This document shows, piece by piece, positions 12,001 to 24,923 of a stretch of 64,000 nt of DNA. Under the pieces are notes generated by a model. It was not told the DNA's origin, made no database searches, and worked only from the letters and a program-made list of their open reading frames with translations. The stretch's first letter is position 1; each line of letters starts with the position of its first letter. The stretch spans positions 62,001-126,000 of the forward strand of contig SCQP01000014.1 in the NCBI GenBank assembly GCA_004299485.1, given 5' to 3'. Origin of the DNA: Acidobacteriota bacterium (lineage in GTDB: Bacteria > Acidobacteriota > Terriglobia > Terriglobales > SCQP01). The translations under genes and the position numbers were made by a program.

Positions 12001-13911
12001 CGCGTCCACCGCCAATGCCTGACTATTGCTTGTGCCCGCGGTAGTCGCCGTAGTATAGCCGCTGGCCGCGCTCAGCATCGTGACCTGATTCGTGCTCTTG
12101 TCGTATATGTACAGGTTGCCAGCAGCATCCAGCGTCAACCCTGTTGGATTGGTGAGATCGCCCACGCCCAGCAGGTGCGTGGTGTACGCGCCGTTGTCGG
12201 GCACGGCCTCCAGCACTGCCTGCTGTCCCGGATCAGCGGCGAAAACGGTTCCATCGCCTGCCACCGCCAGCCCCCCTCCCTGCGGCAGCGTCGCCGTAAC
12301 TACCGTAGACTGCACGTAGTTGCCCAACACCGGCGTTTCACGGATCACTCCGGTCGTATACGCAACGTAAATCGAGCCGCCCGCGTCTACGGCAATCTGC
12401 CCTGGTGTAGCCGGTATGCCGGGGACAAGGTTCGTCTGGGTATAGCCGCCGCCGGAGGGAGTCTCTTTGTAAATATTGCTCGTGCCCGTGTCCGAGATGT
12501 ACACGTTTCCGGCACCATCTACGGCGACACCCTGTGGTGCATTGATGAACGTGCCAATCGTCGTCTGTGTATACCTGCTGCCCGATAGCTTGTCCTCATA
12601 CACGCCCGGCGCAGTACCCGTGACGGCCACAAACACGTTGCCTGTGCCATCAACGGCGGCTTCAAACGATGTGCTCAGTGTCCCGCCGATAGATGTCGCG
12701 GTGCCTGGCCCGAACGCCACTTGCGGGCCATCTCCCGTTCCGCGCACCGGGACGGAAATCTGGACAACGCCTGTGTTATCGGTGAGTTCGATGGCGCCCA
12801 GGCGGAGGCCCGCCAGTGATGGCTTAAACGACGCTGACATCGTGCATGACTGGGCGCCGAAAAAACTTCCCGTACAGGTTCCAGCAGCAGCGGTAAAATC
12901 AAGTCCTGAAACCCCGCCGGTGAGCGCGAGCGGTGTACCCATCGTCACGCCAGCCGTAAAGTAAAAGCGCAGCGTGACCGCGCTGGTTGCGGCGCCCACC
13001 GCACTCCCACCAAAATCTACTCCCAACGCCGGAAATTCCAGCACTAGATTCAGGCTGCCATCGGCGACAAAAATACTGCCTTCAGTGTCCACGTACAGAC
13101 CGAGGGGCTGTGCCAGCCCGTTGTGCGAGAAATCGGCAACCGCGGTCGCGGAGTAGGAGGTGCCTGACGGCACTTCTTTAGTCACCTGTTCGAACGAAGT
13201 ATCAATGACATACACGTCACCGGCGCCGTCGACCACCAGCGCGCCGGGTGCTGTGATCGTGGTGTCAATGTTGGTTTGCGTGTAGGTGCCGCCTGCGGCC
13301 GGCGTCAGCTTGACGACTTCGTTCAGGGCCGAGTACGAAAGATAAATGTTGCCCGACGCATCGACCCCGACGCCGTCGGTCAGATTGCCGGAAACGATCG
13401 TGCGCGCTGTGTAGGTGCTGCCGTTGGGCGTGTACTCGACCACCTGCCCCGAACCCGATGAGCTGGCCACAAACACGTCACCGTTCGCGTCCACGGCAAC
13501 GGCATTACCGTCGTAGCCGCTCGCAATCGTGCTCGCCGTATACGTACTGCCGGAAGGCGTTTCTTTAATGACCGCGTTGGCTTCGCCGATATAGACGTTG
13601 CCACTGGCGTCGACCGCCAGTCCCGCGCCGCCGCCCGCGTTCAAGGTCAGACCGCTGGCCACGACACTCTGCACCCCCGACGGCGTCTGCTGGATCACTT
13701 CGCCGTTAGCCTGATCAGCTAGGTACAGATTGCCGGAGGCGTCCCGCGCCACGGCCACCGGCACGGCGCCGGTTTTCTGGAACACGACCACACCTCCAAA
13801 ATTGACCACGGGGGAAGTCGCGCAAGCTCTTGCGGGAGTCAGGCCAATGCCAATCGCAACACTCACAAAGGCCCAAAAGAAAGCTGCCGGCAGACACCGT
13901 GCGTAAAACAT
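9073..13911 (-). CDS. giant secreted NHL/MBG/Ig-repeat protein
   Basis: A 1612-residue surface or exported protein. A signal peptide is followed by beta-propeller repeats of NHL/SBBP type (VAVARDASGNLYLADQ and similar, two blocks about 45-290 and 395-660). Between and after these are choice-of-anchor/ASPM-like segments with GSxFxxxxCxG patterns. Then come MBG/Ig modules (about 780-1350), a Big-type Ig domain, and a C-terminal hydrophobic pair around 1515-1560 (WVLLGLLGALLTGL, then a second helix ending ACGG) with a short tail. Proteins like this are common in Acidobacteria; adhesion or scaffold roles are guesses. No catalytic motif was seen. The gene is alone on its strand here, and no strong ribosome site precedes ATG 13911. 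Confidence 0.85.
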   Translation of the reverse strand: MFYARCLPAAFFWAFVSVAIGIGLTPARACATSPVVNFGGVVVFQKTGAVPVAVARDASGNLYLADQANGEVIQQTPSGVQSVVASGLTLNAGGGAGLAVDASGNVYIGEANAVIKETPSGSTYTASTIASGYDGNAVAVDANGDVFVASSSGSGQVVEYTPNGSTYTARTIVSGNLTDGVGVDASGNIYLSYSALNEVVKLTPAAGGTYTQTNIDTTITAPGALVVDGAGDVYVIDTSFEQVTKEVPSGTSYSATAVADFSHNGLAQPLGLYVDTEGSIFVADGSLNLVLEFPALGVDFGGSAVGAATSAVTLRFYFTAGVTMGTPLALTGGVSGLDFTAAAGTCTGSFFGAQSCTMSASFKPSLAGLRLGAIELTDNTGVVQISVPVRGTGDGPQVAFGPGTATSIGGTLSTSFEAAVDGTGNVFVAVTGTAPGVYEDKLSGSRYTQTTIGTFINAPQGVAVDGAGNVYISDTGTSNIYKETPSGGGYTQTNLVPGIPATPGQIAVDAGGSIYVAYTTGVIRETPVLGNYVQSTVVTATLPQGGGLAVAGDGTVFAADPGQQAVLEAVPDNGAYTTHLLGVGDLTNPTGLTLDAAGNLYIYDKSTNQVTMLSAASGYTTATTAGTSNSQALAVDAKGIAYWEGTSAGQMERIDRRSAPTLNFGSLALGATGTSAFSLLNLGTLPLTFTSVSNPGSGFVASGCSAGTVANGSSCSETVTFSPQVLGAVAGNINFSDDDLGVSGSLQKVVFNGTGTAAPLTITASSATITLGTAIPKITPAYAGFVNGDTAASLTTAPTCSTTATNSSPAGVYPTTCNGAVDANYSFTYVSGTITITKLTVQTITFGALASVSYGAAPIALSASSSSGLAPAFSVVSGPATVAGTTLTVTGAGTVVVEAEQAGNSTYAAATPVQQSLTVTPAALKITGLSATVAQGAAIPAITPVYTGFVNGDTAASLTTAPTCTTTAKSGSPAGTYPTTCSGAVDANYAITYAPGAITISNLTAQTITFGALAGVTYGAAPITLSATSSSGLAPTFQLVSGPATVSGTTLTVTGAGTVVVEAEQAGNSTYAAAAPVSQSLTVAPAPLTITASSATINLGAAIPKVTPVYTGFVNGDTAAALTTAPACATTASSSSPAGTYPTTCSGAVDPNYGFSYVAGVLTISKLSLQTITFGPLAAVSYGAAPIMLSATSTSGLAPTFQILSGPATVAGSTLTVIGAGTVVVEAMQAGNSTYAAATPVSQSLVVAPAPLTITASSGTMQYGETPAVTPLFTGFVGGDTAKLLSTQPVCTTTATATSAPGTTAATACAGAADANYAISYVSGSITVTKATVTLVLTASASSIAAGVPITLTATATSSTPAVANGLILFTTSTQTGTLISAFTTGGQAIVNPVLNTLGTNTLQATFFPNTDFAGAASNTVQVQVAGAPGNAGFTMGINPTSINVAQIATTLTLTPTGNYAGIVALSCSGIPADMGRTCSFYTTPDLKTQSDSVTLDGTNTSVQRNLVFTLSTSQSGGFAWLGEGGSGSGRWVWVLLGLLGALLTGLRLLKSRKQRLAWSMIVAGVALAACGGLPPTPSNQTATITVTATGIPRKGTSFPAVTTSQQITVQY
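10148..11623 (-). repeat. three tandem 492-bp units inside the repeat-protein gene
   Basis: The landmark GTAAT at the MBG module boundary recurs at 10148, 10640, 11132 and 11624 on the plus strand, which is exactly 492 bp (164 codons) each time. Each unit encodes an MBG-like segment (TPVYTGFVNGDTAASLTTAP) plus an Ig-like segment (VVVEAEQAGNSTYAAA). The units are diverged at the nucleotide level but identical in length, so they come from in-frame duplication. A fourth, partial MBG copy follows downstream in the protein. Confidence 0.85.
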
Positions 13912-21155: not shown

Positions 21156-21461
21156 GTGACATTGGATGCGGACGTGCTGCGCCTGTTGCAGGACGAAATG
21201 CATCGAACGCGCAGCAGCTTTAAGCAGAGCCTGAATCAGGCCGTGCGGCGCGCACTGACTGTAGGACAGCCCCGCAAGTCAGAGGCCTTTGTGTTGCGCC
21301 CGGGCCCCCGGGGTTTGCGGCCCGGAATCGACGATACCCGGCTGGGGCAGTTCGCCGACCAACTGGAAGACAAAGCCCTGGTGGAGCGCATGCGCCGAGC
21401 CGAAGCGGCTGCGGCGGCAATTCAGGAGCGGGCCACGAAAAAGCGACGGGGCCGGTCTTGA
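21156..21461 (+). CDS. VapB-like antitoxin
   Basis: A 101-residue protein encoded directly before a PIN-domain toxin. The N-terminus (TLDADVLRLLQDEMHRT, then SFKQSLNQAVRRAL) has the ribbon-helix-helix pattern of VapB antitoxins, a DNA-binding dimer that also neutralises the toxin through its C-terminal part. The C-terminal half is charged and Ala-rich (RMRRAEAAAAAIQE), as expected of a toxin-binding helix. The best legal start is GTG 21156. Oddly, the codons just upstream read I-K-R-T-T, which resembles the usual MKRTTVTLD start but with ATC (21141) in place of ATG. Its stop overlaps the toxin TTG start. Confidence 0.75.
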   Translation: MTLDADVLRLLQDEMHRTRSSFKQSLNQAVRRALTVGQPRKSEAFVLRPGPRGLRPGIDDTRLGQFADQLEDKALVERMRRAEAAAAAIQERATKKRRGRS

Positions 21462-21889
21462 TTTTGCCGGATATCAATCTCCTGCTGTACGCCTACAATC
21501 CGGAATCCCGTTTCCACCGTGAGGCCGCCGCTTGGTGGCTTGGAGTCATGAACGGCGCCGAACCCGTGGGCTTGGCTGTACCGGTGGCGCTGGGATTCGT
21601 GAGACTGTCTACCCAGAGCTTTGCCTTCCGCGAACCGCTGTCGGTCCAAGCGGCTACCGCGATAGTGCGCGACTGGATCGCACGCCACCAAGTAAGCCTT
21701 CTGCACGTCGAGGCATCGGATCTGTCGCGTGCATTGGCTCTGCTCGACGCCTGCGGAACCCCAGGCAACTTGGCAAGCGATGCTGTCCTGGCCGCGCTCG
21801 CTATCGCTCACGACGCCGTCGTCCACACCGCCGACGCCGACTTCACGCGGCTCAAGTCGGTGAAGTGGCGCAATCCGCTGGCGCGCTAG
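21458..21889 (+). CDS. VapC-family PIN-domain ribonuclease toxin
   Basis: A 143-residue PIN-domain protein, predicted to be the RNase toxin of a type II toxin-antitoxin pair. Acidic residues expected in the metal site are present: Asp5 in LPDINLLLYAYNP, Asp in NLASDAVLAALA and the TADADF motif. The ending VKWRNPL is typical of a VapC subgroup. The start is TTG 21458 overlapping the antitoxin TGA. The stop TAG shares four bases (CTAG) with the stop of the convergent nirK. Confidence 0.85.
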   Translation: MILPDINLLLYAYNPESRFHREAAAWWLGVMNGAEPVGLAVPVALGFVRLSTQSFAFREPLSVQAATAIVRDWIARHQVSLLHVEASDLSRALALLDACGTPGNLASDAVLAALAIAHDAVVHTADADFTRLKSVKWRNPLAR

Positions 21890-23451
21890 GGGTGCTTTCG
21901 CTGTTCCGCGATCAGAACGCTGCCGGCGCCGGGCGCTTTCACGATCACCGTGCCGATCATGCCGTTATGCTCGTGCTGCGTGCACACATAGCGGTAAATG
22001 CCCGGTTGCGTGAACACCCGCGTGTAGCTTTGTCCGGGCTGCAGGAACGAGGAGGCGAACGTTGCCGCGCCAATCGGCAGCATGACGTCCGCGCGGCTCA
22101 GCGCCACGTTGGGATCGTCCACCACGGTATGCATCGTGCCCGAGGTGTTGACCCACGTCACCGCCTGTCCCGGCCGGATCTGGATCACCGCGGGCACGAA
22201 GTTCATGTCCGTCATCGTGACCTTGGTGGTCGAGACCACGACCGAGCTGGCAAGCTCGGCCGCGATCAACGGCGACGGCGCATCGGACTGGTCCGCCAGA
22301 AAAGCTTCCTCCGCATCCTCCGGCGTGATCGCCAGCGGCGGAATTGCCCCGATGCGCTCATCCGGTCCCGCGTACATCAGATGAGCGACATCCTCACCGC
22401 TGACGCTGAAGATGCCCACCAGGCCCTTCGTCACCCGCTCCAGAGCATGATCGACCAGCGTAAATTGCCCCGGCATCTTGGCCTTCATCTCCAAAATGGC
22501 CGCGCTGCCGGGCGGCACGGTACCGGTCTGTACACCCTCGAGCGGCGGCGACTCCAGCGATCCAAACGGGTAGTAGTGCGTAAACATCTCCCCGATGACG
22601 TGCGGCGAGGAGGTGAGATTCGGTCCCGCATTGCCGAAGAAAATCCGTACCGTCTGGCCGACGCGCGCCCTCAGCGGGTACTGCTTGGTGAGGGCATCGA
22701 CGGCGCCATTGAAGACGATGAACTGCGGCTTTTCTTCCAGCAGTCGCGTTTCATCGAGCGATAGCGTGTCACCGCGCTTGCCCGGACCATCGGTGTAAAT
22801 CTCGCCCTGCATCACGTAGTACTCGTGATCGACACGGCGCAGGCCGCCGGGCGGTTCCACGAGAACCAGCCCGTACATGCCGTTGGCGACGTGGTCCGCC
22901 GCCACCGGCGTGCCACAGTGATACACGAACAATCCGGGAACGGTGGCTTTGAAACTGAATGTGCGGCCCCAGTTAAGCTGGCCTCCAGGCTCCGGAGGCA
23001 ATTCGGAAAGCCCCATGCCGCCGCCCGGCCCAAGTGCTGCGTGAAAATCCAGAGAGTGGGCCATGTGATTGCTCGCGTTGTTGTACAGCGTCACCTCAAC
23101 GGTGTCGCCGACGCGCACGCGAATCATCGGTCCAGGAACCTTGCCATCAAACGTCCAGTAGCTGTACGACACGCCGGTCTCCGGATCGAGAGGCGCCACC
23201 AGTTCTTTGGCGGTCAGAACCACTCGTACCACTTCCGGTCCGCGTGTGCCGATCGGAGGAGGAACATCGCTGGGATTCCGGACAATGATCGAACCTGCCG
23301 GCTGGACATTCGTTTTTGACTTCGGTTCTGACCGGTGCTGCTGGGCCAGAACCGAAACAGCGGGAAATATGAAAAACAGTAGTAGAGCAAGCCAACGCCG
23401 CCCGTGCGCTCGACGCGCAGAAGCCGCGGTGGTCGTATAAAGAGGTGTCAT
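21886..23451 (-). CDS. nirK: copper nitrite reductase with C-terminal cupredoxin domain
   Basis: A three-domain periplasmic copper nitrite reductase (521 residues) that reduces nitrite to nitric oxide. After a signal peptide (ALLLFFIFPAVSVLAQ) come two NirK cupredoxin domains: HMAHSLDFHAALGPGGG and LFVYHCGTPVAADHVANGM hold the type 1 (His, Cys, His, Met) and type 2 ligands. SSPHVIGE and LVDHALERVTKG supply the active-site and type 2 His. A third domain (MNFVPAVIQIRPGQAVTW, MHTVVDD, YVCTQHEHNGM) has its own complete type 1 site and may deliver electrons in cis. ATG 23451 is preferred over the adjacent TTG; AGGTGA lies 7-8 nt upstream. No nor or nos genes are in the window. Confidence 0.9.
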   Translation of the reverse strand: MTPLYTTTAASARRAHGRRWLALLLFFIFPAVSVLAQQHRSEPKSKTNVQPAGSIIVRNPSDVPPPIGTRGPEVVRVVLTAKELVAPLDPETGVSYSYWTFDGKVPGPMIRVRVGDTVEVTLYNNASNHMAHSLDFHAALGPGGGMGLSELPPEPGGQLNWGRTFSFKATVPGLFVYHCGTPVAADHVANGMYGLVLVEPPGGLRRVDHEYYVMQGEIYTDGPGKRGDTLSLDETRLLEEKPQFIVFNGAVDALTKQYPLRARVGQTVRIFFGNAGPNLTSSPHVIGEMFTHYYPFGSLESPPLEGVQTGTVPPGSAAILEMKAKMPGQFTLVDHALERVTKGLVGIFSVSGEDVAHLMYAGPDERIGAIPPLAITPEDAEEAFLADQSDAPSPLIAAELASSVVVSTTKVTMTDMNFVPAVIQIRPGQAVTWVNTSGTMHTVVDDPNVALSRADVMLPIGAATFASSFLQPGQSYTRVFTQPGIYRYVCTQHEHNGMIGTVIVKAPGAGSVLIAEQRKHP

Positions 23452-23468
23452 CAAAGTTCACCTGCTTT

Positions 23469-23474
23469 ACCCTA
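23469..23474 (-). promoter_or_regulatory. candidate -10 of nirK (TAGGGT)
   Basis: TAGGGT reads on the minus strand at 23474-23469. A transcript starting 7 nt further (about 23462) would include the AGGTGA ribosome site. From that start the upstream palindrome is centred at -41.5, the class II activator position. Confidence 0.4.
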
Positions 23475-23495
23475 GCCCACTACGCCGTCTGGGCC

Positions 23496-23511
23496 AGTGA
23501 CCGAGGTCACT
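23496..23511. promoter_or_regulatory. CRP/FNR-family-like operator AGTGACCGAGGTCACT
   Basis: A perfect 16-bp palindrome with GTGA-N6-TCAC half-sites, the core recognised by CRP-type members of the CRP/FNR superfamily (FNR and NnrR prefer TTGAT or TTGAC half-sites). It lies 21 bp upstream of the candidate nirK -10, matching class II activation. The divergent glycosyltransferase gene has a TACAAT box at 23569-23574. The regulator itself is not in the window. Confidence 0.6.
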
Positions 23512-23585
23512 TCTATCAGAAGTGGGATATATCCCCGCTCCGCGGCGCCGACCGCGGGCCGTTTCGACTACAATGAGATCCAGGC

Positions 23586-24923
23586 ATGCAACCCATGCTG
23601 CACGCCCAAGCACAGCGCTCGGCTGAGTCTGCACCCCGGGGTAGATCGCAGCCAGCCTTCCCCCAGCAGTTTTGGATTCCGTTGGCCGCGACGGCATGCC
23701 TGCGAGTCGGATTCGGCTGGACTTACCTGGAGCGTGTAAGCCACAGCGCTGTACCGATCGCGCCCTTCGCCTTCGAATCCGGCAACATCGCCCGCGCCTT
23801 GGCGACCGGCCATGGCTTTGCCTCGCCGCTGCCGGTTGCGAGCGGCCCCACGGCCTGGGTCGCACCGGTCTACCCAGGGCTGCTGGCCATCCTGTTCCGG
23901 CTTTTCGGGGTGGCCTCGTTTTCGGCGTTTATCGCTGCCGTGTCCCTGAACGTCGTTTTCGCCACTTTGGTGTGCCTGCCGTTATTTGCTGCAACCCGAG
24001 CGATGGCCCGGCACGTCGGCAGCCAGCGCACGGCCCAGCTTGCCGGCCTGCTCGCCTGCTGGCTTTGGGCCATCTATCCGAACGCCATCCTGCTCACCTA
24101 CCAGAGCATGTGGGATGGCTGCCTCTCCGCCCTGCTGGGGATTACCGTTTTGTGGCTGACGCTGCGACTGCTCGACGACGGCGACCGCGCGCGGGATTGG
24201 GTTCTCTACGGCGTGCTCTGGACTGTCCTTCTGCTGACCAATCCGGTTTTCATTGCGGTGTTGCCCATCTTGTTTGCAGTGCTGCTCTGGCGGCGGGCCG
24301 CCATGCCACGCGCTGCCCTGGCTCTGCTCGTGACCGTTCTGTGCGTCCTGCCCTGGACAGTCCGGAACCGCGAAGCGTTCCACGCCTGGGTGCCCATACG
24401 CAGCGACTTGGGATTGTCACTTTGGTTGGGCAACAACACCGATACCACGGTTCCCTGGCACGGTCAGCAGCATCCGCTCGACGATCTCAGCGAGCGGGCG
24501 TTATTTGTGCGCCAGGGCGAAGTGCCTTACATGCGCGCCAAGTTTGGCGCCGCGCTTGCCTATATTGCGGCACATCCTCTCCAGACGGCAGAGCGCGCGT
24601 GGCTGCGCTTCCGGGCATTCTGGTCCGGCGGCACGCCGCACCCCCTCCACACTTTTCTTTGGGGAAACTGGCAGGTTCGTTACGTTCTGTTCGCCGATCT
24701 GTTGCTCGGCCTGGGCGCACTCGCCGGCATCACTGCCCTGCTCCGCCGCAAAGCCACCGTCGCTTGGGCAGCGGCAATTTTCCCGATACTGATTCCCTTC
24801 GCCTACTATTTCACTGAAGCCATTCCGCGCTACCGGCTCGCCCTCGACCCGGAAGTCATCCTGCTCGCTGCCTGCTGGATCGCCCTGCGCGCGAACCGCG
24901 CCCGCGCTGGCACCGCCTCATGA
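23586..24923 (+). CDS. multi-span membrane glycosyltransferase (PMT/ArnT-like)
   Basis: An integral membrane protein of 445 residues with about 10 hydrophobic segments. Its layout resembles dolichyl-phosphate-sugar-dependent glycosyltransferases (GT39/GT83 type), with a periplasmic loop after helix 1 containing the acidic FESGNIARALATGHGF (the acidic residue is usually catalytic) and PVYPGLLAILFRLFG. It probably transfers a sugar from a polyprenyl-phosphate donor to an envelope acceptor; donor and acceptor are unknown. The stop overlaps the ATG of a GT2 glycosyltransferase, which could make the lipid-linked sugar. TACAAT at 23569-23574 is a possible -10. Confidence 0.7.
   Translation: MQPMLHAQAQRSAESAPRGRSQPAFPQQFWIPLAATACLRVGFGWTYLERVSHSAVPIAPFAFESGNIARALATGHGFASPLPVASGPTAWVAPVYPGLLAILFRLFGVASFSAFIAAVSLNVVFATLVCLPLFAATRAMARHVGSQRTAQLAGLLACWLWAIYPNAILLTYQSMWDGCLSALLGITVLWLTLRLLDDGDRARDWVLYGVLWTVLLLTNPVFIAVLPILFAVLLWRRAAMPRAALALLVTVLCVLPWTVRNREAFHAWVPIRSDLGLSLWLGNNTDTTVPWHGQQHPLDDLSERALFVRQGEVPYMRAKFGAALAYIAAHPLQTAERAWLRFRAFWSGGTPHPLHTFLWGNWQVRYVLFADLLLGLGALAGITALLRRKATVAWAAAIFPILIPFAYYFTEAIPRYRLALDPEVILLAACWIALRANRARAGTAS

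Follow-up and report, generated by a model that had tools for sequence, protein, structure and literature searches.

In a 64,000-nucleotide stretch of a contig from a soil Acidobacteriota bacterium (the window), a gene for a copper nitrite reductase, nirK, is preceded by a palindrome with CRP-type half-sites. We consider it very likely that this palindrome serves as operator in a class II nirK promoter belonging to a nitric oxide (NO)-response regulon, and that the regulon is run by the single CRP/FNR-family protein of the genome. Comparison with related genomes strongly supports the predicted operator, its spacing, the association of regulator and operator, and the content of the putative regulon.

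The nirK gene and its predicted promoter

The NirK protein aligned to 6the_A with an E value of 1e-106 and kept the His/Cys/Met copper ligands and the catalytic Asp/His site residues; the presence of type 1 and type 2 copper ligands together with the catalytic pair in this alignment places it in the NirK class. Its score with the TIGR02376 profile was 290.4 bits, slightly below the cut-off of 296.3. Because the neighbouring gene is convergent, nirK is monocistronic. A small gene pair convergent with nirK lies at 21156-21889; by eye the second gene is PIN-like, and the pair has the appearance of a VapBC-type toxin-antitoxin system. The nearest relatives of the genome, which is 3.3 Mb in size, place it in the Acidobacteria. 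It is the sole carrier of nirK within its family, the gene being absent from 13 of the 14 family genomes, and 10 of the 399 genomes of the class carry nirK. Two COX1-family proteins were found in the source genome. One is cbb3-type and the second is an ordinary oxidase, judged from its gene context and strong COX1 score, and no NO reductase was recognised among these COX1-family matches. The same pairing, nirK without an NO reductase, is reported for strain KBS 96 (PMC5900883).

The earlier note on this DNA had described the sequence upstream of nirK as a perfect 16-bp palindrome. The element, AGTGACCGAGGTCACT at 23496-23511, has perfect arms of 7 bp each (AGTGACC at 23496-23502 and GGTCACT at 23505-23511), but the central GA is not self-complementary, so that the reverse complement reads AGTGACCTCGGTCACT and 14 of 16 positions are symmetric. 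Read on the minus strand, the order of elements upstream of nirK is GTGACCTCGGTCAC TG N20 TAGGGT ... AGGTG AACTTTG ATG (Table 1). The TAGGGT box was found on the minus strand where it had been reported, at 23474-23469, and its first base lies 29.5 bp from the centre of the palindrome (23503.5). With the usual -12/-7 convention for a -10 hexamer, this distance puts the centre at -41.5 relative to a predicted start. The earlier note had set that start at about 23462. The spacing from the hexamer stands and recurs in 50 other promoters, but a start exactly at 23462 would fall within the Shine-Dalgarno sequence, and the true start is therefore probably 1-3 nt upstream. A standard sigma-70 scan detected no promoter, as is expected of an activator-dependent promoter that lacks a -35 element. 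Judged by sequence alone, nirK and the 50 homologous promoters share the marks of class II CRP/FNR-dependent promoters, namely a site centred near -41.5, a -10 element, and no good -35 element.

Table 1. Elements of the nirK gene and of its predicted promoter, in window coordinates
Feature	Position	Strand	Basis
nirK, copper nitrite reductase, C-terminal plastocyanin-type cupredoxin domain, 521 aa	21886..23451	-	profile and structure matches
Shine-Dalgarno AGGTG, 7 nt before the ATG at 23451	23459..23463	-	sequence
Expected transcription start region	23462..23465	-	inferred from -10 position
-10 hexamer TAGGGT (TAnnnT)	23469..23474	-	position read from sequence; offset conserved in 50 other promoters
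TG directly after operator, conserved remnant of -35 element	23495..23496	-	94% of the 50 homologous sites have G at the second base
Operator core GTGAC-CTCG-GTCAC (minus-strand reading), candidate CRP/FNR-type site	23497..23510	-	sequence; same site in related genomes

The core GTGACN4GTCAC occurs exactly four times in the 3.3-Mb genome, compared with none for the reversed control. Apart from the nirK site, two of these cores (C14:134727 and C14:404582) appear intragenic, and the remaining one (C8:79237) lies between a cupin gene and a short-chain dehydrogenase gene. With one mismatch allowed, 117 sites were found versus 105 for the control, which is no overall enrichment; therefore, either the regulon has few members or such sites are for the most part noise. 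When the core was combined with the downstream elements into GTGACN4GTCAC-TG-N20-TAnnnT, nirK gave the only match without mismatch in the genome and the next best match had three mismatches, with about 0.006 matches expected by chance under uniform base composition. Two further symmetric elements lie between nirK and the divergent gene: an inverted repeat, CACTTCT-ATC-AGAAGTG (23508-23524), which overlaps the right arm of the palindrome, and after it a perfect 12-bp palindrome, GGGATATATCCC (23524-23535).

The CRP/FNR-type regulator and its probable operator across Terriglobia

The genome encodes one CRP/FNR protein above the family cut-offs, a second helix-turn-helix match falling below them. 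This protein of 228 aa is encoded outside the window, at G000:C20:87322-88005 (= L005:1195-1878), and belongs to the CRP/FNR superfamily by its matches to PF00027 (76.5 bits) and PF13545 (HTH_Crp_2, 63 bits), both above cut-off. The E. coli CRP sequence served as the guide for residue numbering. Its recognition helix, GTVREVVSRNLSR, contains REVVSR, in which R189, E190 and R194 are the equivalents of R180, E181 and R185 of CRP, the residues of CRP-type DNA specificity. Among 88 aligned sequences, R, E and R occupy these positions in 100, 98 and 100%, respectively. In the CRP/FNR family, R180 has been linked to the first G of the half-site (PMC1274295), and with an R-E-R helix GTGA half-sites are therefore expected over TTGA. 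The inspection of recognition helices proposed in the earlier note thus yielded a single protein with the CRP-type residues, and it is probably this regulator that reads the palindrome.

The sensor domain of the regulator matches neither E. coli-type CRP nor FNR. At the position of the cAMP-contacting arginine the regulator has Tyr99, and Tyr is found there in 93% of the orthologs; the NCBIfam CRP model scored 49.5 bits, far below its cut-off of 266. The four-cysteine [4Fe-4S] pattern of FNR is absent from the regulator, which has three cysteines, two of them conserved, and the FNR model scored 24.7 bits against a cut-off of 228. The two conserved cysteines are nearly invariant (C54 in 95% and C123 in 99%). 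H126 is also common in the sensor domain beside them, and C54, C123 and H126 may possibly serve as redox, metal or haem ligands. Among structures, 4ev0 (68.8 bits) matched the regulator better than the DNR structure 3dkw (52 bits).

Orthologs of the regulator are present in 171 of the 399 genomes of the class. All 10 nirK-bearing genomes have one, versus 161 of the 389 without nirK (Fisher p 0.0002, a value that ignores shared ancestry). The operator is found beside the regulator genes as well. Exact GTGACN4GTCAC was present in 27 of 87 ortholog loci, no more than 330 bp downstream of the regulator gene, and 47 of the 87 had it there when one mismatch was allowed. Beside the same 87 genes, control palindromes unrelated to the motif, TTGACN4GTCAA and TTGATN4ATCAA among them, gave no exact matches and at most three with one mismatch, whereas the overlapping variant ATGACN4GTCAT gave 2 exact matches and 13 with one mismatch.

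We aligned 50 sites from other Terriglobia on GTGAC-N4-GTCAC alone, leaving the source nirK out of the set. A TAnnnT hexamer (A second, T sixth) stood at offset 37 in 76% of them, whereas the best other listed offset reached 10% and the maximum in 1000 shuffles was 20%. Offset 37 is the spacing of nirK, that is, a centre at -41.5. The palindrome was followed directly by TG, with G in 94% of the sites, and the source nirK, although outside the set, fits every fixed position of the consensus. The genes after the operator include those for RIC/YtfE/ScdA di-iron repair proteins (TIGR03652), for a TIGR04053 radical SAM protein related to heme synthases and for a NapH/NosR-like iron-sulfur protein, and NnrS genes are close to the operator in several Terriglobia loci. 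In genome G254 (L142 position 7240), a further exact site lies upstream of a small gene of flavin-binding type, PNPOx/NimA-like by eye, which is a possible further member of the regulon. In genome G308 (L177 12452-14764), the gene immediately preceding the regulator gene encodes a protein of 516 aa whose start looks ScdA_N-like by eye, and a site with one mismatch lies upstream, at 12383.

The source genome has ric and nnrS on the strand of the regulator gene, some 3 kb farther along, and a long kinase-like gene (914 aa; L145, G000:C20:80000-95000) stands in between; in many other Terriglobia the regulator gene and ric-nnrS are adjacent or close. Ahead of the source-genome ric there is a near-match site, GTGACCGAAGTCAT, with one mismatch and without the TG, and the hexamer at its offset 37, CATTCT, is poor. 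The ric site is weaker than the nirK site.

Conservation of the site at nirK was examined at the level of the class because the 13 other family genomes lack the gene. With at most one mismatch allowed, 8 of 22 acidobacterial nirK loci have a site upstream of the gene, versus 2 of 66 others (p 0.0002), and in Terriglobia about ten loci carry the operator ahead of nirK or of the operon that contains it. Exact sites stand before the nirK gene or operon in G218, G119 and G254, those of G218 and G254, which come in addition to the 8 loci just counted, preceding the first gene of the operon, and in G218 and G119 the regulator gene is about 1-2 kb from nirK. The hexamer is at offset 37 in the source nirK and in loci L009, L011, L018 and L072, and 1 bp farther out in L008, L019 and L106. 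At nirK of L010, L012, L013, L017, L098 and L100, the left half TGACAACTG is kept and the right half is degenerate; several acidobacterial nirK genes (L010, L012-L017, L098, L100) have one clear half-site or none. FNR/DNR sites are largely absent at acidobacterial nirK and present at many proteobacterial nirK loci. The search for the palindrome at other genes and at nirK of relatives, also suggested earlier, thus turned up ric, the vicinity of nnrS and about ten nirK loci in Terriglobia. The earlier proposal of a class II CRP/FNR promoter with a GTGA half-site agrees with the recurrence of palindrome and 29.5-bp spacing at predicted NO-response genes across Terriglobia, and with the CRP-type arginine in the helix.

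Proposed mechanism and alternative explanations

We propose that a dimer of the 228-aa protein would bind GTGAC-N4-GTCAC centred at -41.5, overlap and replace the -35 element, and recruit RNA polymerase to the degenerate TAnnnT -10 box. Through the near match given above, this protein would also drive ric (ytfE/scdA) and the neighbouring nnrS. The signal would be NO, or NO derived from nitrite, as suggested by the make-up of the regulon (nirK, ric and nnrS) and by the fact that no NO reductase was recognised among the COX1-family matches. NO as the ligand, and with it the chemistry of sensing, is a weaker part of the proposal than the promoter mechanism.

The same regulator and site might instead answer to oxygen, redox state or nitrite, perhaps by way of the two conserved cysteines, with the NO genes forming part of a broader low-oxygen or redox programme. 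We regard this as rather unlikely, though it has points in its favour: the near invariance of C54 and C123 in the sensor domain, the many regulator-bearing genomes without nirK, and the genomes in which the site precedes the TIGR04053 radical SAM gene or the NapH/NosR-like iron-sulfur gene and not ric. However, no target recurs more consistently than ric, a gene for the repair of NO damage that often has nnrS in its vicinity, and both genes are tied to NO in other NO regulons (PMC1274295). Activation, like the dimer contacts, is what we infer from known families in preference to a repressor operator, at which the bound protein would block RNA polymerase and be released under NO. HcpR2, an NO regulator of CRP/FNR type, has been proposed to repress in this way (PMC5701242), and any protein on the nirK operator would cover the -35 region. 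Nevertheless, the strict -41.5 spacing, the poor -35 region with TG only and the degenerate -10 element in 50 promoters are marks of class II activation, and repression does not need a fixed spacing, which makes a repressor improbable here.

Two other readings carry far less weight. The site is intergenic and nearly symmetric, and it could in principle serve the divergent gene at 23586, which encodes a membrane protein beside a glycosyltransferase. Read in that direction, however, the site is not followed by TG and the hexamer at offset 37 is CCCCGC, whereas nirK fits every position and is also the gene that accompanies the site in other genomes. We ruled out the divergent gene as the target on the grounds that neither TG nor a -10 element is found on its side, and the chance that it is served by the site is very slight. 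It is harder still to believe in a chance palindrome without function. One-mismatch sites are indeed no commoner than the control in the source genome, and of the four exact sites two are apparently intragenic, but the composite site is unique in the genome and the same architecture stands at related genes in dozens of genomes.

Beyond the class II NO-response promoter at nirK, we tentatively put forward a wider idea, which is a possibility more than an expectation. The regulator may represent an undescribed NO- or redox-sensing CRP/FNR subfamily, with an RE[VL]VSR helix, a GTGAC-N4-GTCAC operator, and two invariant cysteines instead of the FNR cluster ligands or a known haem site. This subfamily might be a lineage-wide NO-stress switch of Terriglobia that took over nirK in more than one separate lineage; in the present genome, where no NO reductase was recognised, nitrite reduction would be wired into NO defence and not into respiration.

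Significance and comparison with known systems

Few soil bacteria are commoner than Acidobacteria, some of which have nirK. In the open-access literature, we found no description of the transcription control of acidobacterial nirK, nor of the combination of a GTGAC-N4-GTCAC operator, a regulator group of its own and nirK-ric-nnrS in Acidobacteria. NO regulators with CRP-type half-sites (HcpR) are already known, as is the control of nirK by CRP/FNR proteins (DNR and NnrR). The analysis puts names to a regulator, to its operator and to the members of a small regulon, each of them testable. For an organism in which no NO reductase was recognised, the proposed wiring would explain how the reduction of nitrite to NO is coupled with defence against NO, and such coupling bears on the release of NO and N2O from soil. 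The earlier note had called the wiring of nirK unusual, and a CRP-type half-site at nirK is indeed uncommon; in Terriglobia, however, it is the standard site of a putative NO-response regulon, and such half-sites have precedents in NO regulators.

E. coli CRP shares with the regulator described here the GTGA-N6-TCAC half-sites and the residues equivalent to R180, E181 and R185, but its cAMP-contacting arginine is replaced by Tyr in 93% of the orthologs. DNR-type sites have TTGA half-sites, whereas the first base of the half-site here is G. In Pseudomonas and beta-proteobacteria, DNR is, as proposed here, a CRP/FNR protein controlling nitrite reductase and NO-response genes (PMC1274295). NnrR of alpha-proteobacteria controls nir, nor and nnrS and thus overlaps with the regulon here, but its motif, ctTTGcgnnnncgCAAag (PMC1274295), is unlike the GTGAC operator. 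By published descriptions (PMC1274295, PMC5701242), HcpR/HcpR1 of Desulfovibrio resembles the present regulator in belonging to the CRP/FNR family, in having R-E-R at helix positions 1, 2 and 6, in recognising GTGA-N6-TCAC, and in responding to NO, a response that is assumed here. HcpR1, with R, E and R at the same positions, binds TGTGA-N6-TCACA, so that CRP-type half-sites are known for NO regulators (PMC5701242). The targets of HcpR are hcp, frdX and nap, whereas those proposed here are nirK, ric and nnrS, and unlike that of HcpR the half-site here is GTGAC without a requirement for the outer T...A.
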